IMG/VR virus record: IMGVR_UViG_3300009177_000124
Location: 1-22,272 of that record
DNA from: a virus
Reading direction: 5' to 3' (one strand)
DNA: 22,272 bases
The position numbers and the translations under genes were made by a program. Position 1 is the stretch's first letter, and each line of letters begins with the position of its first letter. Shown here piece after piece: positions 4,653 to 20,127 of the stretch. The notes beneath the pieces are model-generated. The model searched no databases and was not told the DNA's origin. It saw only the letters and a program-made list of their open reading frames with translations.

Positions 4653-7001
4653 TCAGGCCCCCTGCCTGATCTGCCAGGCCGTGCCGTCGCTTCGCAGCCT
4701 GGCCCACTTGCCGGCCGTGGCCGCGAGGATGGCCGTCCCGGCAGCGCCGCCGGCCAGGGGAACGACGTTCGAACTCGCCGAGTTCACGAGCTGCGCGGTG
4801 ATCGTGCGCACGTTCAACTCCCGCCCGGGCCATTTCGTCGGGTCGGGTAGCGTGACCGTGCAGGTCGCAGCGACGTTGAAGGTCACGGCGTCGTCCTCCG
4901 GATTGATGGTCGCCGTCGACGTGGCCACCGTGCGCTCGCTGCTCTGCCAGCGGTCGAGGGAAACGCCCGTCGAGTTCGCGCCCACGAGGTACTTCTTGCC
5001 GCCACCGTCAGGCGTGCAGGTGTTGCCGCGCTCGACGACGCCCGCGACGTTATCGAGGCGGATGGAGTTCGTTCCGTTCGTGAACGTGTTCGCAGCGATC
5101 GAGCCGTTGGTGATCGAGCCGACATCGATGCCGGCCACGTAGCAGCACTGAGTAGTCCCGGACGCCACCTCGATGTCGTTGCCGGACATGGTGAACGTGC
5201 CGACCGTGAAGCCGGTTGCCGCGCGGATGACGCAGCCGAAGTCCACGCCAGTAGCTGCTCCCACCTTGACCGTGTTGCCCTCCATCACGACGCGGGAGAT
5301 GTTGTTGTTGAAGGCGAACGCATACGGCCCCGTCTCGAAGCCCTGGCAGAAGTTGCCCGCGATGCGGATCGAGTCGACATCGCTCGGGGTCGCTCCGGAA
5401 TAGCCCTGGCAGAGGATCGCGATGTTTCCCGGGAAGTCGGTCGAGTTCGTCGGCGACGCATACAGCTGGTTGCCTTCGATGATCGTGACCTTCGGGACGT
5501 TCGGGGTCGTCTCCCACTGATGCTGGATGCCGTTGCCGGTCACGTTGTAGCAGCGGTTCCCGATGGCAGTGAGTAGCGGCCCCTGGCAGCGGATGCCGCA
5601 CATGCCCGTGGGCGTCGAGCTGTTAAGGCCGACCGACATGTGGATCTCGTTGAACGAGAAATTGAACATGCCGCCGACGCCCGGGTGCGTGTTCATGGAC
5701 GAGCCGTGCATATTGAAGCACTGGTTGTTCAGCGCGTAGACATCCATGCAGATGCCGCCGATCGCGGTGTCCCCCGAGGCATCCACGGCGTGGCAGAGGT
5801 CATAGAACTGGCTGTTGATGACCTTGACGTTGGACGTTCCGTAGACCAGGGAGACGCCGATGTTGCCTCCGGTGTAGCTGTCCTTTTTGCAGGTCACGCC
5901 GTCCACCAGCACGTCCAGGCACTTGTAGAACTGCATGCCGACGTAGTCGGTCTTGTTCGTCGTGATGTCTCGGACGGTAACGTTGCGGCAGTACCAGAAC
6001 AGCAGGGCTCCGTGCTGCCGGAGACCCGCGTAGGCGCCACGGAACTCGGCCTTGCCCTCCACGACGATGTTCTCGGCGAACGCCATCTTGCGCACGACTG
6101 CGGTATCGGCCGTGTTGTACGTGAGGTACAGAGGCTCGGTGAGCGTCACCGTCTTCGTACCAGTGTTGACCGCGAGGACTTGGCGAAGCTCACCGCAGGG
6201 CGTGTTGGTATCGGTCTCATACAGGCGCGTCGAGGAGACTTGCAGCCAGTCGTCCTGCGCGATACCTGTCACATCCGTCAGGACGAGCGCGTTCGTCTGG
6301 GCCGCCGCGTTGGCGGTCAGGGAGACCGGGGAACCGATACCGCCCTTGAAGACGAGCCCGAAGCTCGTGTTGCTCCAGGGCGTGTTGACGCCCGGGTTCG
6401 GGGTCGTGACGCCAGACAGGTCGAAGATGACGCCGGGGTCGATCACCAGATGCGTATTGCTCTTCGTGCTCAGGATGCCGCTGCCCGTTATCTTGTACGT
6501 GCCAGCCATGATCCGAAGCCGGCCACCAACGTTCAGGAAGTTTTGCATGCCTCCCGTGCTGTCGGCAACACCGGTATTGTCTATTCCCGCGAATCCGGAA
6601 GTCGTCACAAAGTCGGACAAGCCCGAAGTCACCGTGCGCGCAACAGATCCTGCGTATGTGTACTGGTACTGAACGAGCGCAGCGCCTTGGGCGGGGTTCG
6701 CAAGAGCGGCCTGAAGAGCCGAAGAGAACCCGGATCCATCGGTGATGTTGTCAACCGACCAGATGGTGTTTCCGAGCGAGTCCTTGAGGGTGAAGCTGTA
6801 GGGGAGACTGCTAATCCATACCTGGGCCTCGCCGCGCGAATTCAGGATGACCGGATTGGTATTCGCAGTTGTCAGCGTTCCATCGGTATACGTGGCCTGC
6901 GGAGTGGTCGTGCCGCTTGCGTAGCTGTACAGGAAGCCGCCCGCGATGGGGGTGCCATCCGCGAGCAGAGCCTGGAATCGGCCGTTGGTGAACTGCGACA
7001 T
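4653..7001 (-). CDS. Tailspike / receptor-binding protein with beta-helix (782 aa)
   Basis: The N-terminal domain (residues 1-90: SQFTNGRFQALLADGTPIAG, YSYASGTTTPQATYTD, NTNPVILNSRGEAQVWI) is a particle-binding adaptor shared by many podovirus tailspikes. From about residue 138 (GIDNTGVADSTGGMQNFLN, RIMAGTYKITG) a pectate-lyase-like parallel beta-helix begins. It runs through short Asn/Gly-turn repeats (NVTVRDITTN, NVKVINSQFYD, VTIIEGNQLY, SRVVMEGNTV) to about residue 660. A C-terminal domain of about 100 residues may be for trimerisation. Likely role: binding and possibly cleaving host surface polysaccharide; catalytic residues cannot be named. The gene stands apart from the ejection block, behind two terminators, with its own GGAG site five bases before ATG 7001, as for P22 gene 9, which is also separated from gene 16. 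Confidence 0.87.
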   Translation of the reverse strand: MSQFTNGRFQALLADGTPIAGGFLYSYASGTTTPQATYTDGTLTTANTNPVILNSRGEAQVWISSLPYSFTLKDSLGNTIWSVDNITDGSGFSSALQAALANPAQGAALVQYQYTYAGSVARTVTSGLSDFVTTSGFAGIDNTGVADSTGGMQNFLNVGGRLRIMAGTYKITGSGILSTKSNTHLVIDPGVIFDLSGVTTPNPGVNTPWSNTSFGLVFKGGIGSPVSLTANAAAQTNALVLTDVTGIAQDDWLQVSSTRLYETDTNTPCGELRQVLAVNTGTKTVTLTEPLYLTYNTADTAVVRKMAFAENIVVEGKAEFRGAYAGLRQHGALLFWYCRNVTVRDITTNKTDYVGMQFYKCLDVLVDGVTCKKDSYTGGNIGVSLVYGTSNVKVINSQFYDLCHAVDASGDTAIGGICMDVYALNNQCFNMHGSSMNTHPGVGGMFNFSFNEIHMSVGLNSSTPTGMCGIRCQGPLLTAIGNRCYNVTGNGIQHQWETTPNVPKVTIIEGNQLYASPTNSTDFPGNIAILCQGYSGATPSDVDSIRIAGNFCQGFETGPYAFAFNNNISRVVMEGNTVKVGAATGVDFGCVIRAATGFTVGTFTMSGNDIEVASGTTQCCYVAGIDVGSITNGSIAANTFTNGTNSIRLDNVAGVVERGNTCTPDGGGKKYLVGANSTGVSLDRWQSSERTVATSTATINPEDDAVTFNVAATCTVTLPDPTKWPGRELNVRTITAQLVNSASSNVVPLAGGAAGTAILAATAGKWARLRSDGTAWQIRQGA

Positions 7002-11762: not shown

Positions 11763-13681
11763 GGCGGGGTGAGCCTCACAAGGACTTGGATGATGTGGGT
11801 CGGGTCGGTGTTCGTCACCGTGAGCGTGAAACTCGACGCGTTCGAGGCATCGACTGCGCTAATCGCGAGGTTCGCAACCGTTCCCGTCCCAAAGGCAATG
11901 GCCCCCGGAGTTCCGTATTCGCTGAAAACAGGTGTCGGAACGATGTTGGCCGAAGGGATCGCCTCTTGATAGGCGAATAGCCCGAACTTCGCGTGGTTGC
12001 GATTGGCTGGAGAAGTCTTCCAGCGCGTCGTGACCGTCAGCGTGTACCCTTCAGTCGTCGTTGCCCCGATCGGAGGAAGGCTGAAGATCCATGCGAAAGA
12101 ATCGCCAGGGTTGAGTTCTGTCGTCTGGGTATCAGGCGTCGGAGGGTAATAGAGCCTGCCGTCCTTCTGCTTCAGGAAGCTACGGTTGTCGTAGTTCGTG
12201 ATACCGGCGACGTTGAGCACCACCAGGTTCGGGATGCTGTCTCGGAGCGGGAAGCATTGAAGAGGCGTCGGGACGTTGGTCGCCTGTCCTCCAACGATCG
12301 TGATGTCCGTGACCGGGAAGTCGGGGTTGGAGGTGTTGTTGATGACGATCGCCGAAGTAGGCGTGTCAGGAGGCGTCCCGCCATCATCATGACCGGATGA
12401 GTAATCGTTGTTCGTGATCGTGATCGACTGGCTATCCTCGATGAACACCCCGACATCGAGCGGCGCGCCTGACTTCCCCGGTCGGCGATGCTTGACATCT
12501 GCGAGTTGGATCGACTTGCACTGTCGAATATCCACGCTGTTCGTGAACGCTCTATCCGAGCACAGGCTGGATACGATCTGGTCTTCGCACTGGAAGAACC
12601 CGAAGTTTGGCCCGGCCTGGGTGAACTCGACACGGACACCAACGAAGGTATTAGCGTTGGCGCCCGTTGTTCCATGGATGCCATAGGTCTGGCAATTCGC
12701 GACAGATCCTCCCAGCACCTGGCCATCAACAAGGTTCTGGATGCCGATTCCGCATGTGTTGGCTGAAGAGTCCAGCCACTTCAGGGCATGGGTGTAGTTC
12801 GAGCCATGCGTTCCATCGGGGCCGAGGGCCGCCTCCCCGATGCCGCTGGAGCAATTCAAGATCGTGCAACCCCAGATCTTCAGGTGGTTGCTGCCGCCTG
12901 ATACGCCCGGCAAGGTGCTGTCGACGCCATCAATCAGAAGACCAATCATCGTCACCGACCGGACGTTGATTGGAGCACCACCGGAATCGCGCAGGTACCC
13001 GAAGTTAAAGACCGCCGTGCACCCAACATCCCCGATGAACGTCGGCAGGATGCGGGGATTGAGCGGGTTGATGTTGTCCGTGTAGGGCTCTCCGGACGCC
13101 CCCAGGATCGTGACCCCAGGCGCAGGCATGATGCCGAGACCGGAAATTCTGTAAGCCCGCGGGTTCGCCTTCGCCGAGACCCAGAGACCAGACACAGCAA
13201 GGTTCCAGGCCGCCGTGTCATCCGTCCCAGATCGGACGGCTCCGATGTAGGCCGCGTCTCCCATCGCCCCCAGCTGCTCGGCTTCGATGGGCTGATCGAA
13301 CGGAAGTTGCCAGAAGTTGCCCTCGCCGTCCTGGATGGTGTATTCGTTCTCCGTCCAGTCGCCCGTGGGCAATTTGTAGTACGTCGCCGCACCCTTGCCT
13401 AGCTCCGTGTACCCAGACGTTCTGATGGCGTTCGGGATGGCCTGGCCGAGATCCTTCCAGCGAATCTTCCTGATATCCGAAAAGAGCCGAGTGCTGTACG
13501 CCCCAGGGGAGACGTTGAGCATTTGCTGTACAAGCTCGTCCACAGCAAACTGGATGGACGCGATCGTCCCCGTCAAGGGCTGCGACAGCCATCTCTGAAA
13601 GTCGGGGTGAGGCTTGACAGACTGCCCGCGGGCGTCTATGCCGACATACGGGACAGCCGATATGACCGGAGGGAGAGTCAT
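11759..13681 (-). CDS. Beta-helix spike protein in the tail-needle position (640 aa)
   Basis: N-terminal residues 1-115 form an adaptor (VKPHPDFQRWLSQPLTGTIA, then FAVDELVQQMLNVSPG, possibly helical). From about residue 145 (LGAMGDAAYIGAVRSGTDDTAAWNLA, in part) a pectate-lyase-3-like right-handed beta-helix starts. It continues through NHLKIWGCTILNCSSGIG, CKSIQLADVKHR, SQSITITNNDYSS and TDITIVGGQA to about residue 500. The last 130 residues look like a beta-sandwich (GYTLTVTTRWKTS, SSFTLTVTNTDPTH). This suggests a second depolymerase or receptor-binding spike. In P22 this place holds the tail-needle gene 26, which is not recognised here. The start overlaps the gp10-like stop by ATGA. Confidence 0.77.
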   Translation of the reverse strand: MTLPPVISAVPYVGIDARGQSVKPHPDFQRWLSQPLTGTIASIQFAVDELVQQMLNVSPGAYSTRLFSDIRKIRWKDLGQAIPNAIRTSGYTELGKGAATYYKLPTGDWTENEYTIQDGEGNFWQLPFDQPIEAEQLGAMGDAAYIGAVRSGTDDTAAWNLAVSGLWVSAKANPRAYRISGLGIMPAPGVTILGASGEPYTDNINPLNPRILPTFIGDVGCTAVFNFGYLRDSGGAPINVRSVTMIGLLIDGVDSTLPGVSGGSNHLKIWGCTILNCSSGIGEAALGPDGTHGSNYTHALKWLDSSANTCGIGIQNLVDGQVLGGSVANCQTYGIHGTTGANANTFVGVRVEFTQAGPNFGFFQCEDQIVSSLCSDRAFTNSVDIRQCKSIQLADVKHRRPGKSGAPLDVGVFIEDSQSITITNNDYSSGHDDGGTPPDTPTSAIVINNTSNPDFPVTDITIVGGQATNVPTPLQCFPLRDSIPNLVVLNVAGITNYDNRSFLKQKDGRLYYPPTPDTQTTELNPGDSFAWIFSLPPIGATTTEGYTLTVTTRWKTSPANRNHAKFGLFAYQEAIPSANIVPTPVFSEYGTPGAIAFGTGTVANLAISAVDASNASSFTLTVTNTDPTHIIQVLVRLTPP

Positions 13682-15153
13682 GCGCCAGTCCCGCCGACCC
13701 TGATGCTGCCGCCAACGACATCACGACTCACGGGATCCGTGATGCTCACTTCATAGACGCGATTCCTGGCCCCTCCAAGGCGTCTGAAAATGGCCCGGTT
13801 CCGGGTCTCTCCGATTTTCCCGATGGATGCCTGATAGGTGTTCGACCAACCGTTTTCATCACGCCAACGAAGCATGACCTGAGGGTCTGCGCCCTGCCCC
13901 GTAGATTGGGCTACACCAGGGGTGAATTCGACCTGTAGGCGGACATGCCGGACACGATTGCGATCACCCTGATCCCACACGTAGGGGGTGCGGCGCATCG
14001 AGTACAGCGCTCGGTCACCATCGGTGAAATACTGACGCGACTGCCTCCAGATCTTCCCCGTGGAAACATCTCCCACCAACCTCTGGCCTGCAAAGTTGAT
14101 GAGGCAGTTAGCCCGGCTGCGATGCAACAGCCCATCGCTCCCATACGATTGCCGCTTGTGCCAGAAATCGGTTGTGAAGTCATAGACCCACGTTACGTCA
14201 GCACTTGGGAAGTTGATGACGTAGAACTCATGACCCTCTTCCGTGTAGACGTAGGCCGTGGCGTCACTAATGACCTTGTACTGCGTCAGCGCATAGGAGA
14301 ACGCGGGGTTGGATATCGATTTGAAGTCGTAGCCCTGCGTCATCACGACGTAGTTGTCACCGCGCTCCGACGTTCCAAGCCAGCACAGCCCATGCCCCGT
14401 GCGAACGATCGTCTGGGCCGCGATGCAGCCAACTTGGAGCATGGCCCCTTGAAGGCGGCCGAACGCGAACGTGGTTCCACCTTGGTTGAACCAAACTTCA
14501 GTCGTCTTCTCTCCGACAAGCCACAGTTCGCGCTTGTCCTCGATCATCGTCACGAGATTGTCCGGAGCGTCGTCTTTGAGAGCGAAATACGTACCGTCGA
14601 ACGGATCGGTTCCGTTCCAGTAAACCGGCGTCGTGTTGAATTTCTGAGTCCCTGCCGAGTTGAAGATGATCCATCCGTCAACCGACATTAGGCGAGTTGG
14701 GTTGATGACGTTGGTATCGGTCACCTGGCGAAAGACACTGGTCTTCGTCAGGTAGGCATACATGGAGACCCCATCAACGATCACCAGCACGCCAGCGACG
14801 CCGTTATCGCGCATGCAGACGGCACCCGAACTCGATGCCATCGTCCCGACTGCGGTTAGTGTGAACGTGGCATAGGCGGTTGCCGTTGCCGGGGTGGCGA
14901 TCGTCACCTTGACCACCTGAGTTCCGATGACGAGGAATGCCACGGTTCCGCCGGGCATCACGTGCCCTCCTCGAACCTCACCCGTGAATCCCGAGGTGAC
15001 TGCCTCCTGAAGGCCTGGGCACCCCAGCAGGGCGACAGGAGACTTGGCTTGAGGATTTCTGTCCGTCTCGACATACCAGCCGACCAGATCCTGGTCGTCC
15101 TGAAGCGGGTTCGCCGCTTCGTAGGCGCCACCAATGAAATCCCAAGCCGACAT
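13678..15153 (-). CDS. P22 gp10-like head-closure / DNA stabilisation protein (491 aa)
   Basis: The protein begins SAWDFIGGAYEAANPLQDDQ followed by VGWYVETDRNPQAKSPVALLGCPGL, the hallmark opening of the gp10-type packaged-DNA stabilisation family. Further typical blocks are LWLVGEKTTEVWFNQG, GLCWLGTSERGD, FYVINFPSADVTWVYDFTT and RRTPYVWDQGDRNRVRHVRL. In P22, gp10 binds under gp4 to form the tail hub that closes the portal after packaging. Length is close to P22 gp10 (472 aa). Its ATG follows the gp4-fusion stop with no gap (TAAATG), as expected for proteins that bind each other in sequence. Confidence 0.88.
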   Translation of the reverse strand: MSAWDFIGGAYEAANPLQDDQDLVGWYVETDRNPQAKSPVALLGCPGLQEAVTSGFTGEVRGGHVMPGGTVAFLVIGTQVVKVTIATPATATAYATFTLTAVGTMASSSGAVCMRDNGVAGVLVIVDGVSMYAYLTKTSVFRQVTDTNVINPTRLMSVDGWIIFNSAGTQKFNTTPVYWNGTDPFDGTYFALKDDAPDNLVTMIEDKRELWLVGEKTTEVWFNQGGTTFAFGRLQGAMLQVGCIAAQTIVRTGHGLCWLGTSERGDNYVVMTQGYDFKSISNPAFSYALTQYKVISDATAYVYTEEGHEFYVINFPSADVTWVYDFTTDFWHKRQSYGSDGLLHRSRANCLINFAGQRLVGDVSTGKIWRQSRQYFTDGDRALYSMRRTPYVWDQGDRNRVRHVRLQVEFTPGVAQSTGQGADPQVMLRWRDENGWSNTYQASIGKIGETRNRAIFRRLGGARNRVYEVSITDPVSRDVVGGSIRVGGTGA

Positions 15154-16962
15154 TTAAAATCCGCCGCCAAGGATCCAGCCCGCGTCATTGGACGAACGCG
15201 AGGAGATGGAGGCCACATCAAGGACAACCTCGGATTGAGGCTGCATGTTGGTCGACTTCAAGACCTTCTTGAGACCCTTGGCCATCTGGGCTATCGGCAG
15301 CAAGATTTGCGGATCGGTGCCGTACTCGGGCGCAAGCATCACGGCCAGGTTGTATTGCAGGGCCAGGAAGTAGCCGGGAGGCAGGGCCAGCGTGTCCGCC
15401 AAGGCGAGGTTCGACAGAACCATGTCCGACCACATGTGGAACTCACCGCCGGAGGACGGGACGGGCCAGAAGAACAGCTGCGCCAGCGGAAAGCCAGTGT
15501 TGTAATAAGCCATCTTCGGCCACGGGCCGGGCTGGCTCTTCAGGCCCAAGGCGGTGTACTTGTCGGTGGAAATCTCGTTGCACGGGAAGTCGACCGCAGA
15601 CCCGCTCGTCGTGAGCCGGGTGTACATGTTGGTGATGCGAAGAGGGCGCGTGATGTTCACGTCACCGCCGGCACCAATCGTGTAGACATTCTTGCCGGGG
15701 ATCAGTGAGAACACGGTCTCAACGTTGTTGTAGACCGCAAGGTGTTCATTCGACCAGATGTCGATTAGTCCATTGAGGACAACCAGTGCGTCGTTTGCAT
15801 CCGACGCGGGGATGGTCTCGCCGGGGGCGAATTCACCGAGCTTGCGGAGGGCACCCTGGATGATGTCGAGAGCGGTAGGCATGTTCGGTGTACTCGGTAG
15901 CGGTTCGACGATCGAATCGAAAGACGCCGCCATCGGAGACAAAATATCGTCGTCGCCGCTGCGGATGTAGTAAACGCCGTCATCCGACAACGCGAAGCCA
16001 TCGGGAGCCGGCGAAACACCGGTCGCATCGAGTGCGATGCCGTAGGTTGTTCCCCCTGTCCCTGGGGTGTGAAACTCCCACCAGGCCGATGTCAACTGCC
16101 GCTGATAGGCGGTATGCAGCATGGCGTTCATCACGCGCCGGTCGGTGTCTTGTGAGATCCGGGCGCCAAGCTGGTTGATGTACGCCGGGACGTTGTTTGA
16201 ATCCCTGAAGTCGGCAACCTGGTTGACGCGATCGATAGCGCTCTGGACGGGATCCGGGTTGCTCGCGAAGTTGAAGACATCCGCCGTGACGATGATGTCG
16301 GTACGCCCGCCGGTCAGGACTGCAAAGGAAAGCTTTCCGGGTTGGTAGCTGTTGCCGCCCGTGATGACAACCATCTGCGGATCAACCGCCTTGATGGCGT
16401 CATACGCCTGCTCGTCGAACGTCCGGATGTCGGTGTCCGTGAAAGGAGCGTCAGGATCTGGCTCGACCAACGGCCCGATGCCGCCGATCATGTCGCAGTC
16501 AAGAAGCTGCCGCGTAAGCTCGGTCAACGCCTGGAAGTGCTCAGCCCTCCGCGCTGGATCCGTAAAGACGTTGCGTCCATGCGGCCACGAGCCAGTTGGA
16601 TCAGGCGCGGCGCAGTAGATCCCGAGCGAGCTATCGTCTGGGTCGTAACCCAGCCGGTTGCACTTCGAGTGCATCTCGATGAACGACCAGATTCCTTGCG
16701 CAGCATTCGCCTGCACCCTGGCGCGAAGAACGGCGATGAAGGCCGGGTTCAGGTTCCCGGGCTGTCCCGCCATGTAGGCGTCTCCAGCGGATCCGTTTTC
16801 CCTGAAAGGGAACTCGATGCGCTCGAACCCATAACGCCGCGCTTTGTAGCGGGTGGCATCTCCGGCCTTGAACAGCTCCCATCGACCGTTGATGCCGAGA
16901 CGGACGAACCTCCGGCCGTTCGGCAGGATCAAGTCCTTGCCGGAGACGCGTAGCCTGGACAT
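15154..16962 (-). CDS. Fusion of GH5-like glycosidase domain and P22 gp4-like head-to-tail adaptor (602 aa)
   Basis: Two domains. Residues 1-310 resemble a GH5 (cellulase-type) barrel: LPNGRRFVRLGING, GFERIEFPF (45-53), GIWSFIEMHS (90-99), MIGGIGPLVEPDPD (158-171), VDPQMVVITGGNSY (193-205), VPAYINQLGA (258-267), SAWWEFHTPG (292-301). Glu167 fits the acid/base position, but the expected NEP is VEP and the nucleophile Glu of GEFG appears as Gln264. Residues 361-602 (MPTALDIIQGALRKLGEF, ANDALVVLNGLIDIWSNEHL, PRPLRITNMY, ALQYNLAVMLAPEYG) match the gp4-type tail accessory factor. P22 gp4 has 166 residues, so the N-terminal part is an addition. An in-frame ATG at 15882 could start a free adaptor but has only a poor ribosome site. 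One base separates it from the SGNH gene; gp10 follows. Confidence 0.82.
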   Translation of the reverse strand: MSRLRVSGKDLILPNGRRFVRLGINGRWELFKAGDATRYKARRYGFERIEFPFRENGSAGDAYMAGQPGNLNPAFIAVLRARVQANAAQGIWSFIEMHSKCNRLGYDPDDSSLGIYCAAPDPTGSWPHGRNVFTDPARRAEHFQALTELTRQLLDCDMIGGIGPLVEPDPDAPFTDTDIRTFDEQAYDAIKAVDPQMVVITGGNSYQPGKLSFAVLTGGRTDIIVTADVFNFASNPDPVQSAIDRVNQVADFRDSNNVPAYINQLGARISQDTDRRVMNAMLHTAYQRQLTSAWWEFHTPGTGGTTYGIALDATGVSPAPDGFALSDDGVYYIRSGDDDILSPMAASFDSIVEPLPSTPNMPTALDIIQGALRKLGEFAPGETIPASDANDALVVLNGLIDIWSNEHLAVYNNVETVFSLIPGKNVYTIGAGGDVNITRPLRITNMYTRLTTSGSAVDFPCNEISTDKYTALGLKSQPGPWPKMAYYNTGFPLAQLFFWPVPSSGGEFHMWSDMVLSNLALADTLALPPGYFLALQYNLAVMLAPEYGTDPQILLPIAQMAKGLKKVLKSTNMQPQSEVVLDVASISSRSSNDAGWILGGGF

Positions 16963-16963
16963 T

Positions 16964-18286
16964 TCAGGCCGTCATCACGGCTTGAACTAGCGCGGCGGCG
17001 GATTCTCCTGACTTCTGGTACAGCGTCCCGACCGGATGCAGGCTATCCGACATCCATGCGCGGTTGTTCGCCTGCTCCCAGGTGCTGATCTTCGTCCACA
17101 CGTCGTCGCATACCAGACCGTACTTCGCAGCCACAGCGACAGTAACGTCCCGATAAGCCTTCTGCATCGTCAGATTGCGAATCGAGTTTTGGCTTGGGTA
17201 GTGCGTGCGGAGGATGATGTTGATGCCAGCAGCAAGCAGCTTCTGAACAATCGACTCCAAGTCGGCTTGGTAGGTCGCCGGGAACTGGCCGCCAACCGTC
17301 GCCGATGGGCTACCCGTCTGGTCTCCTGCGTTGTTGTACTCATTGATGCCGGGCTGCATCACGACGAGATCCGGGTTCAGCGCGATAAGAGCGCTGAGGT
17401 TAGACCAGGGGGCGGTCTGGGACTTCAAATCGCTACAGCGACTGCTGGGCCACCCAGCGTTGTAGACGCGCACCGCGGGCCGGGTGGAGTCATATGCATC
17501 CAGCATGCAAATGACGACAGCACCACCGCCGCCAGCACGCTGGATGTTCCAGAAGTTGATGGTTGGCGTGGCGACTCTGAGCGTCGCCTTCACGAGCGCA
17601 GCAGTGCCAGCCGAACTCAGGCCCGTCAGGCTTTCGGCGCTGCCGGTCTTCGTGATAGACCAACTCGTGGAAAGCCCCACGTCCTGCCGATACCAGACTT
17701 CGAGCGTGTCGCACGGCTCGAAGGGGCGGTAATTGAAGGAGTTGGTTCCCGTAGCGCTCAGGGCGTTGGCGCCGAGCGTAAGGACGTTACCGGCGGCCAG
17801 GGAAGTCCACCCAGCATTGAGCGTACCTGTCCGGCCCGTGTCGTAGTCAGCTAGCGTTGCGACGGTCGTGCCGTCCTGCTTGAAGAAGTTGCTGACGTTG
17901 TTGTCCCCGCACTGCGCAGCATCAAAGACAGGCAGATCAGAGGATTGCAGAGAGGCCGCGAACCAAGGAACCGTGCTTGCGGGCCGGCAACCCTCTACCG
18001 GATTCGGGTAGGTTCCGGCTGCATAGGCGCCGGCCATCGTGGAGTCTCCGAGCATCACCAGCTTCATGAAGCCCGTACCCGCCCGGACGGATGCATACGC
18101 CGCCCTGGATCGGGCGTAGTTCGTTCGAGTGAACGAACCTCCGATGACTGACGGGCTGATGGATGCGCTTCGCCCAGCGATGCTGAGCGCAGTAACGCTT
18201 ACCGAGGGATCGGCGCCAGGAACGGCTTGGGCCGGCTGGTAGTTGATATTGCTCGAAGACGAGGGGCCGCCGTTCACGCTGGGCAT
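16964..18286 (-). CDS. SGNH/GDSL-type hydrolase (440 aa)
   Basis: Probable esterase or deacetylase acting on surface or storage polysaccharide. The SGNH blocks are in order: LVMLGDSTMAG (Ser82), YNAGWPSSR (Gly278), MQPGINEYNN (Asn315) and MSDSLHPVG (Asp414, His417), so the active site looks complete. Residues 135-265 form an insertion between the first blocks with beta-rich sequence (DTLEVWYRQDVGL, STSWSITKTG), possibly a substrate lid or sugar-binding module. The first 70 residues are low-complexity Ser/Ala-rich and could attach it to the virion. There is no secretion signal. It is inserted between the capsid genes and the gp4 gene, behind a terminator and with GGAG five bases before its ATG; P22 has no gene here. 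Confidence 0.84.
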   Translation of the reverse strand: MPSVNGGPSSSSNINYQPAQAVPGADPSVSVTALSIAGRSASISPSVIGGSFTRTNYARSRAAYASVRAGTGFMKLVMLGDSTMAGAYAAGTYPNPVEGCRPASTVPWFAASLQSSDLPVFDAAQCGDNNVSNFFKQDGTTVATLADYDTGRTGTLNAGWTSLAAGNVLTLGANALSATGTNSFNYRPFEPCDTLEVWYRQDVGLSTSWSITKTGSAESLTGLSSAGTAALVKATLRVATPTINFWNIQRAGGGGAVVICMLDAYDSTRPAVRVYNAGWPSSRCSDLKSQTAPWSNLSALIALNPDLVVMQPGINEYNNAGDQTGSPSATVGGQFPATYQADLESIVQKLLAAGINIILRTHYPSQNSIRNLTMQKAYRDVTVAVAAKYGLVCDDVWTKISTWEQANNRAWMSDSLHPVGTLYQKSGESAAALVQAVMTA

Positions 18287-18300
18287 ACGTGCTCCAAAAG

Positions 18301-18321
18301 AAAAAGGCCCCCGAAGGGGCC
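18301..18321 (-). terminator. Rho-independent terminator before the SGNH hydrolase gene
   Basis: On the minus strand GGCCCC(TTCG)GGGGCC is followed by TTTTTCTTTT. The GGAG site and ATG (18286) of the hydrolase gene follow directly. The preceding small head gene stops at 18345. Confidence 0.88.
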
Positions 18322-18344
18322 TGTAAGACCAAGGAGAAAGCGGT

Positions 18345-18731
18345 TCAGAAGCTGTTCAGGTAGCCACCGGTCGGCAGCGCGGCGAGCGGCTGCGGACGGT
18401 TCACTTCGAACGTGTACACGCCCGCCGGAGGGGTGAGAGAGCCCGCCGTGACGTTGGCCCACACGACTTGCACCGTGTCGGCGGCGGTCACCGAAGCGCC
18501 CACCACAAAGACACCAGCAGGAGTGATCGCAGGCGGGGACACCGCACTGATCTGGTCGCCGACGATGACGCCGAGGCCGGCGATCGTGAACGACTGACCG
18601 GCAGTGGTCACGGTCGCGACAGCCGCTGGCGTGATGCTGGCGCCAATCAGGGCGTTCTTCTGGATATTGCCGATGGAGGCCTGGGGCTGCGGGGTCGCAG
18701 TGATCGCCGGCCCGGGATTGCTCGTAGACAT
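18345..18731 (-). CDS. Small head-associated protein, possible capsid decoration (128 aa)
   Basis: The protein is nearly all beta strand with many Ala, Val, Thr and Gly. Typical phrases are SFTIAGLGVIVGDQISAVSP, GVFVVGASVTAADTVQVVWA and GSLTPPAGVYTFEV. I recall similar small proteins following the coat gene in several podoviruses and siphoviruses, where some decorate the capsid. It has its own AAGGAAA site six bases before ATG 18731 and is enclosed by a terminator on each side, so its level may be set separately from the coat. Function is inferred from position and fold type. Confidence 0.68.
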   Translation of the reverse strand: MSTSNPGPAITATPQPQASIGNIQKNALIGASITPAAVATVTTAGQSFTIAGLGVIVGDQISAVSPPAITPAGVFVVGASVTAADTVQVVWANVTAGSLTPPAGVYTFEVNRPQPLAALPTGGYLNSF

Positions 18732-18755: not shown

Positions 18756-18773
18756 AAAGGCCCCGAAGGGCCT
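18756..18773 (-). terminator. Terminator-like hairpin after the coat gene
   Basis: On the minus strand AGGCCC(TTCG)GGGCCT is followed by the broken T-tract TTCTTC. It lies 6 bases past the coat stop (18779) and about 15 bases before the ribosome site of the next gene. The weaker tract suggests partial termination. Confidence 0.7.
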
Positions 18774-18778
18774 ATTCC

Positions 18779-20086
18779 TTAACCAGCGACGCGCGCGGCC
18801 AGCTCGCGGTAAAGCGGGGCATAGCCGTACAGGACATCCAGACGGGTCGGCAGGGCATCGTTATTGATTGTGTATTGCCTAACGACTCGGATGCTCATCC
18901 CGACATCCTTCGCAGCCGCACGAGCAGCCATGTCCACACCGCCCGGGAGCGGCAGGTCGGCCGACACCAGGGTGTAGGCATCCTTGTGGAAGGCGAGCGA
19001 TTGCGGGCTGTTCTGGTTCGAGGCAAACAGCGTGATGCCTGCGGAGTTGGCGGGGGCGGCGCTGACGTTCTGGAACTGACCACCCGAGATCACGCACGAG
19101 GCCACCGTCACCTGGAGCAGGCCGGAGCCGTCTGAGGTGTAGGTGCCGCCCGTCACGTTGCCGAAGATGTCGGTCGTGGGGGCGAACGTGCCGTTGGAGG
19201 GCGTGCCAACCGGCGGGCGAACCACGAAGTAGCGCAGTTGCTTGGTGGTCTGGCGGTTCTGCGGGTTCACCATGAACACGTTCGCCATCGTGAACACGTC
19301 GCCGACGTTCAGGACAGCGGTGGAGGCCGTCCAGCCCTTCGTCTGAAGGGTGCCGGTGTCGGCCCAGCCCGAGGTCAGCAGCGCAGACGACGTGCCGGTG
19401 GTCGAGAACTGCGGAGTACCGGCCAGGGTCGCGAACTGCTGGTTCGAGATGTTCTGATCCATGTACCAGTCGAAGCCGACCGTCTGGCGAGACATCAGGC
19501 CCTTCTTGTACTGCTCCGAGATGGCGATCTGAGGATTGAAAAGGCCCGTCAGCGCGCCGACCATCGAGGCCTGCGAGAACTGATCCAGTACCATGCAGCG
19601 GTTGCCATCGCGCGGAGTGGCCTCCGTGTCCAGCAGAGCGCCAGCCGTGAGGAACGGCGCCAGCGTGGTCGGGGAAGTGCCCGCCGTGCCGACGATGTTG
19701 GCCGTGTTGACGCGCATGAAGGCGGCCAGGTCGGCGTCCACACGGTTGGCGATGGCGGCGATCTTCGGCTTGAGGACTCGCTGCGAGAACATGTCCATCG
19801 AGAGCAGCAGGTCACTCGTGATGAACTGCGTATCGATGTGGAACTGGTTGGTCAGCGACACCGCAGTGCTGCCTTCCACGAAGTCTTCCACGTTCAGCGC
19901 GGGGCCGGCCGTGCCCTTGAATCGACCCGGGCGACGCACGTTGATCGTGTAGCCGATCTTCGCGCCATCGACGCCGAAGCGGTCGTCGTACTCGCGGTTG
20001 ACGTGCTTGGAAAGCACGCACTCGTTTTCGAGAATCATCAACGCTTCGTTGGTGATCTCGCTGATAGTCAGCAGATTGTTTGCCAT
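18779..20086 (-). CDS. Major capsid (coat) protein, P22 gp5 family (435 aa)
   Basis: Forms the icosahedral head shell together with the scaffold. Opening residues MANNLLTISEITNEALMILE, NRVDADLAAFM and the end block (LPLPGGVDMAARAAAKDVGM, in part, then RVVRQYTINNDALPTRLDVLYGY) are characteristic of P22 coat-family proteins. Length (435) agrees with P22 gp5 (430). ATG 20086 was chosen over the upstream in-frame start at 20104 because GGAG lies 8 bases before it and the longer start would fall in the terminator T-tract. A segment rich in Gly/Thr (about residues 205-320) fits the surface insertion domain. The gene is flanked by terminator hairpins on both sides. Confidence 0.92.
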   Translation of the reverse strand: MANNLLTISEITNEALMILENECVLSKHVNREYDDRFGVDGAKIGYTINVRRPGRFKGTAGPALNVEDFVEGSTAVSLTNQFHIDTQFITSDLLLSMDMFSQRVLKPKIAAIANRVDADLAAFMRVNTANIVGTAGTSPTTLAPFLTAGALLDTEATPRDGNRCMVLDQFSQASMVGALTGLFNPQIAISEQYKKGLMSRQTVGFDWYMDQNISNQQFATLAGTPQFSTTGTSSALLTSGWADTGTLQTKGWTASTAVLNVGDVFTMANVFMVNPQNRQTTKQLRYFVVRPPVGTPSNGTFAPTTDIFGNVTGGTYTSDGSGLLQVTVASCVISGGQFQNVSAAPANSAGITLFASNQNSPQSLAFHKDAYTLVSADLPLPGGVDMAARAAAKDVGMSIRVVRQYTINNDALPTRLDVLYGYAPLYRELAARVAG

Positions 20087-20102
20087 GTCTGTAGCTCCAA
20101 AC

Positions 20103-20127
20103 AAAAAGCCCGCTCAGTGGCGGGCTT
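20103..20127 (-). terminator. Rho-independent terminator between scaffold and coat genes
   Basis: On the minus strand AAGCCCGC pairs with GCGGGCTT around a 6-base loop and continues into TTTTT (20107-20103), just before the coat ribosome site. Nearly the same sequence is found before the tailspike (7046-7070). Confidence 0.87.

Follow-up and report, generated by a model that had tools for sequence, protein, structure and literature searches.

A single open reading frame joining a GH5-like domain to a head-to-tail adaptor in a podophage contig

The fusion gene and its setting

The window, by which we mean the whole stretch of viral DNA that was analysed, is 22,272 bases long and has an integrase-like ORF at one end and a portal fragment at the other (both judged by eye). 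The gene order coat, adaptor, gp10-like is present on its minus strand, with coat and Hc3 homologues on either side of an ORF in which the adaptor is continuous with a GH5-like domain:

18779..20104, minus strand: P22-type coat protein (PF11651, E=3e-36)
18345..18731, minus strand: 128-aa post-coat protein, a probable decoration protein, with the N-terminal motif MSTSNPGPA (homologues in related loci)
16964..18286, minus strand: SGNH/GDSL hydrolase, 440 aa, with the N-terminal motif MPSVNGGPS (PF13472, E=3e-12)
15154..16962, minus strand: GH5-like/head-to-tail adaptor fusion ORF, 602 aa (single open frame, no internal stops)
13678..15153, minus strand: gp10-like packaged-DNA stabilisation/head-closure protein (phrog_578, head closure Hc3, E=1e-91)

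The fusion ORF runs from 16962 to 15154, with an ATG start, 602 codons and a TAA stop; it begins right after the stop of the SGNH gene, and its end directly precedes the gp10-like ATG. Each of the two alternative frames on the same strand contains 15 stops, and the GC3 of the coding frame, at 0.63-0.93 per 30-codon block, is high across both domains and the junction. No other ORF on the contig gave an adaptor match. The first-pass annotation had claimed a single-frame fusion of a GH5-type domain with a gp4-class adaptor, and the absence of an internal stop, together with the PF00150 and phrog matches described below, bears this out.

Among the neighbours, the 128-aa protein has 37 homologue matches in related loci, where its usual place is between coat and adaptor, and the SGNH/GDSL hydrolase carries the residue motifs GDS at 80 and DSLH at 414. 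Terminator-like minus-strand hairpins precede the SGNH gene (18305-18322) and the 128-aa gene (18758-18773). Further along the window, at 4653-7001, is a tailspike with a K1-lyase Rider domain; its first ~95 residues are found again in proteins encoded ahead of the adaptor in two related loci (L008 and L011).

The two domains and the junction between them

Within the fusion ORF we distinguish the following features:

15898..16962, minus strand: GH5-like domain, residues 1-355, Pfam stretch 36-297 (PF00150, the relative L096, PDB profile matches)
16462..16464, minus strand: Glu167 at the GH5 acid/base position, LVEP in place of LNEP (alignment with L096, Persicobacter and Staphylococcus homologues)
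16171..16173, minus strand: Gln264 at the GH5 nucleophile position, YINQLGA versus YIGEFGA (alignment with T. maritima Cel5A and homologues)
15883..15903, minus strand: short linker PLPSTPN, residues 354-360 (between the aligned L096 C-terminus and Met361)
15157..15882, minus strand: head-to-tail adaptor domain, residues 361-602, from the ancestral start Met361 (starts of relatives, pLDDT, Foldseek, phrog_12985)
15388..15744, minus strand: beta-rich insert at about residues 407-525, separating helices H2 and H3 of the adaptor (predicted secondary structure)

Residues 36-297 match PF00150 (Cellulase) with 30.3 bits against a curated cut-off of 23.5 (E=3.8e-7), and residues 1-355 taken alone reach 32.5 bits (E=8e-8). 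The cellular relative L096, a protein of 392 aa encoded by a genome of the same order as Burkholderia, shares ~25% identity with fusion residues 2-311 (E~1e-18) and is itself a PF00150 match (E=3.6e-16). A two-sequence profile of the GH5 domain and L096 recovers PDB 6jyz (E=1.3e-9) and Cel5A entries (2.5e-6). AlphaFold had few usable homologues for residues 1-355 alone and gave a pLDDT of 34; when the full fusion was modelled with 24 adaptor rows, most of the GH5 half was below 50. The argument for a barrel fold is therefore one made from sequence profiles.

The adaptor half is modelled with far higher scores: residues 361-570 have block-mean pLDDT values mostly of 86-96 in the run with 24 adaptor rows. 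Foldseek aligns the full model with podophage neck adaptors, many of them at a probability of 0.99-1.00, the matches including cyanophage A4, VP1, GP4, SU10, DEV, T7 gp11, KP32 TTPA, P22 gp4 and Sf6. At the sequence level, phrog_12985 covers residues 363-585 (E=5e-45), and the beginning of phrog_637 'head-tail adaptor Ad3' gives a weak hit (E=9e-4); the domain is 51-64% identical to the adaptors of the nearest podophage relatives, and the best PDB matches of the adaptor profile are P22 gp4 chains throughout (E=0.002-0.006). It is not P22 gp4 proper, which is small and lacks a beta insertion, since here there are both an N-terminal domain and an insertion of ~100 residues that is comparable to the lectin-like insert of DEV and the fibre-dock insert of T7 (PMC10925440, PMC6702177). 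The adaptor is nearer the DEV/KP32/T7 type than the small P22 gp4, and by homology it would assemble as a dodecameric, twelve-fold ring.

Met361 occupies the alignment column at which most related adaptors start, and the C-terminus of L096 aligns near residue 350-355 of the fusion, so that the linker is just about 6-10 residues long and a near-complete GH5-like protein is joined to a complete adaptor. Of the domain limits first given, 1-310 and 361-602, the start of the adaptor stands, at Met361; the GH5 domain, judged from L096, probably ends at about residue 350 rather than 310. Such a layout is what one would expect from the loss of a stop in the neighbouring gene.

A rival reading is an assembly or sequencing artefact, in which a contig error erased the stop between separate GH5 and adaptor genes. 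The fusion is known from a single contig, and separate adjoining genes are usual in relatives (a gap of 2 nt in L110, an overlap of 4 nt in L024), but a frameshift error would imply a GH5 gene that overlaps the adaptor by 15 or 38 codons, given the other-frame stops at codons 376 and 399. The artefact is simple only as a base error at a stop codon, and the coding composition is continuous over the junction; we regard it as quite improbable. An unlikely alternative of another kind is a translational mixture, in which ribosomes also start at Met361 and produce a mostly ordinary adaptor ring with some barrel-bearing subunits. Met361 is the ancestral start, and twelve barrels of ~40 kDa would presumably be crowded. 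The Shine-Dalgarno duplex before Met361 is weak (-2.5 kcal/mol versus -5.0 for gp10), and that of the full ORF's own start is no stronger (-1.8). Because the adaptor starts of several relatives likewise have weak Shine-Dalgarno matches, internal initiation at Met361 may still occur. The best explanation of the whole, and one that we hold to be reasonably probable, is that the ORF encodes a true head-to-tail adaptor with two domains, in a podophage that has a P22-type coat gene and a gp10-like gene.

Active-site residues of the GH5-like domain

The catalytic acid/base Glu after beta4 is present as Glu167, though the Asn that should precede it is Val, and the catalytic nucleophile Glu after beta7 is absent, its place being taken by Gln264; we therefore call the domain GH5-like and not an active GH5 enzyme. 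Arg54, His98 and Trp295 are retained; beta6 lacks the His of its HxY motif. The nucleophile position is also Gln in L096 and in a Persicobacter plasmid protein, and it is Glu in a canonical Staphylococcus homologue. The occurrence of Gln in these two cellular relatives suggests a divergent GH5-like branch, which looks, from the alignment, like a maintained variant rather than one damaged enzyme. Ordinary cellulase chemistry is less likely for it than glycan binding or atypical catalysis. The active-hydrolase reading of the first-pass annotation is weakened by Gln264 and the other degenerate active-site residues.

An active glycoside hydrolase on the neck that cleaves host polysaccharide would need an unrecognised nucleophile or a substrate-assisted mechanism, with Glu167 as the acid and Gln264 in a polarising role. 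The retention of Glu167, His98, Arg54 and Trp295 speaks for it, as does the presence of the Glu/Gln pair in cellular relatives, which implies that the branch is maintained, and there is a precedent in the KP32 adaptor TTPA, which is reported to degrade EPS (PMC5440376). Canonical GH5 catalysis, however, requires the second Glu, and with the HxY His and the Asn that precedes Glu167 likewise gone we think such an enzyme unlikely. We give almost no credence to the idea that the GH5 domain is the product of an auxiliary metabolic gene, an enzyme of soil carbon degradation and not a virion part. One viral GH5 from soil is reported to be an active endomannanase (PMC6786970), but here the domain is fused to a structural protein, has no evident N-terminal signal sequence and has had its nucleophile replaced.

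Related loci and known neck proteins

Viral-contig scans with adaptor alignments, together with phage and genome matches, yielded 245 adaptor loci, 169 of them distinct. Apart from the present one, none of the 169 (0/169) has a domain-sized N-terminal fusion, which leaves one metagenomic contig as the basis for the present case. PF00150 was matched in 0/58 records of related phages and the GH5 domain in none of 50,697 phage records, which means that a check for the same fusion in other phages, as the first-pass annotation had proposed, brought up no second case. Searches of viral contigs with the single protein and with GH5 alignment A3 as queries gave no confirmed homologue of the GH5 domain; among 399 genomes of the phylum, A3 matched the source genome alone; and the full-length fusion protein had no match in genome contigs. 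We found no other neck-ring protein here whose chain also contains a whole glycosidase-type domain.

Two sets of candidates were rejected. In MW202557 and P26218 a tblastn match seemed to reach residues 279-302, but the alignment had run over the gene boundary, and the proteins upstream look unrelated by eye. The apparent N-terminal extensions of ~70 residues in many adaptors are explained mostly by an insertion around adaptor position 74 and otherwise by short in-frame starts upstream, none as large as a domain. Separately, five loci (L075:3983-6150, L241, L247, L248 and L249) contain two or three adaptor-like genes in tandem, which suggests adaptor duplication.

In related phages the slot beside the adaptor is often filled by carbohydrate-active genes. 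These include SGNH esterases in L025, L053 and L068, with another nearby in L190; a polysaccharide deacetylase in EBPR podovirus 1 (L006); a K1-lyase C-terminal domain in L016; and, in Acetobacter phage phiAX1, a GH66 (dextranase-type) gene that lies two genes downstream of its adaptor (L009:4902-6722). In layout, the unfused counterpart of the fusion is L110:3278-4471, a stand-alone clan GH-A (GH39/GH10-like) barrel that ends 2 nt before an adaptor 57% identical to that of the fusion. It was considered as a sequence relative of the GH5 domain and rejected, there being no detectable similarity. Among the relatives, L024 has the adaptor most like that of the fusion, with about 64% identity over a cut-off copy; a 628-aa protein at L024:2118-4004 overlaps the adaptor start by 4 nt, has a propeller-type look and has no Pfam match.

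An N-terminal motif, M..(T/V)N.GP(A/S), is common to the 128-aa post-coat protein and a number of slot proteins that are unrelated, including the SGNH hydrolase of the window; it occurs in the proteins encoded at window positions 18345-18731 and 16964-18286 and in L016, L020, L025, L030, L110 and L124. A loose form of the pattern, which was drawn up after examples had been seen so that the contrast is descriptive, is found in 28/101 slot ORFs versus 5/1319 others, and four of those five are the post-coat protein. The motif is possibly a virion-attachment tag. The fusion protein does not have it, and we infer that slot proteins may reach the virion by the N-terminal motif and the GH5-like domain by fusion.

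We propose that the accessory slot between coat and adaptor once held a separate GH5-like gene, which was fused in frame to the adaptor at the adaptor's start codon. As homologous adaptors form rings of twelve, as many as twelve GH5-like barrels would surround the neck; the fusion protein would be present in the virion in twelve copies, with the barrels predicted to face outward. Their function would most likely be to bind, or at best slowly process, a host surface or matrix glycan; working with the tailspikes and the SGNH esterase, they might help to fix the particle in extracellular polysaccharide or set its orientation ahead of DNA ejection. As a means of attaching a sugar-contacting domain to a virion the fusion is probably new, with a single case so far. 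A wider reading is more doubtful, though possible: the lineage may tether whole glycosidase-type domains via the neck adaptor as an alternative to the shared N-terminal motif, and the ring of Glu/Gln GH5-like barrels would serve as a lectin-like collar or a substrate-assisted enzyme.

If real, the arrangement shows how accessory carbohydrate genes can be turned directly into parts of the virion. It would also caution that GH5 genes found on viral contigs from soil, which are often taken as auxiliary metabolic genes, may be structural; the GH5 domain here is encoded within a structural protein. The branch with Gln for Glu makes a clear test case for binding versus catalysis.

With GH5 enzymes such as T. 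maritima Cel5A and the endoglycosylceramidases the domain shares profile similarity over the barrel and the acid/base Glu; it differs from them in the change of the nucleophile Glu to Gln and in its fusion to a virion structural protein. The barrel of L110 lies in the same slot, directly before its adaptor, but it is a separate gene and has, by eye, an apparently canonical Glu pair. P22 gp4 resembles the adaptor half in its position between portal and gp10, in gene order and in the helical part, which is matched by profile and by fold; unlike the fusion, it has 166 aa, no beta insertion and no N-terminal domain. It is listed as a dodecameric neck lysin (PMC5380687), which agrees with the muralytic activity first invoked to explain the fusion but is uninformative on a GH5 barrel.

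The earlier statement that receptor contact does not normally take place at the neck goes too far. The fibres of T7 dock at the adaptor-nozzle interface (PMC6702177), and in DEV, an N4-like phage, gp83 carries, between H2 and H3, an outward lectin-type insertion of 101 residues ('lectin-binding domain'), and fibres bearing an esterase form a collar around the adaptor (PMC10925440). DEV gp83 shares with the present protein the helical bundle and the ~100-residue H2-H3 beta insertion (Foldseek match 9bgm_B); it has no N-terminal barrel, its sugar-related domain being the insert and the esterase-like domain being on a separate fibre. Tail tubular protein A of Klebsiella phage KP32 likewise has the adaptor fold (Foldseek 5mu4) and a reported dual role on EPS (PMC5440376), but that activity is assigned to the adaptor itself and not to a fused glycosidase-type domain. 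Given the lectin-type insertion of DEV, the EPS activity reported for KP32 TTPA, the docking of T7 fibres and the case of P22 gp4, a sugar-contacting domain mounted on the neck fits known biology. Adaptors with sugar-related inserts or activity are already known; the new element is the fused whole barrel.
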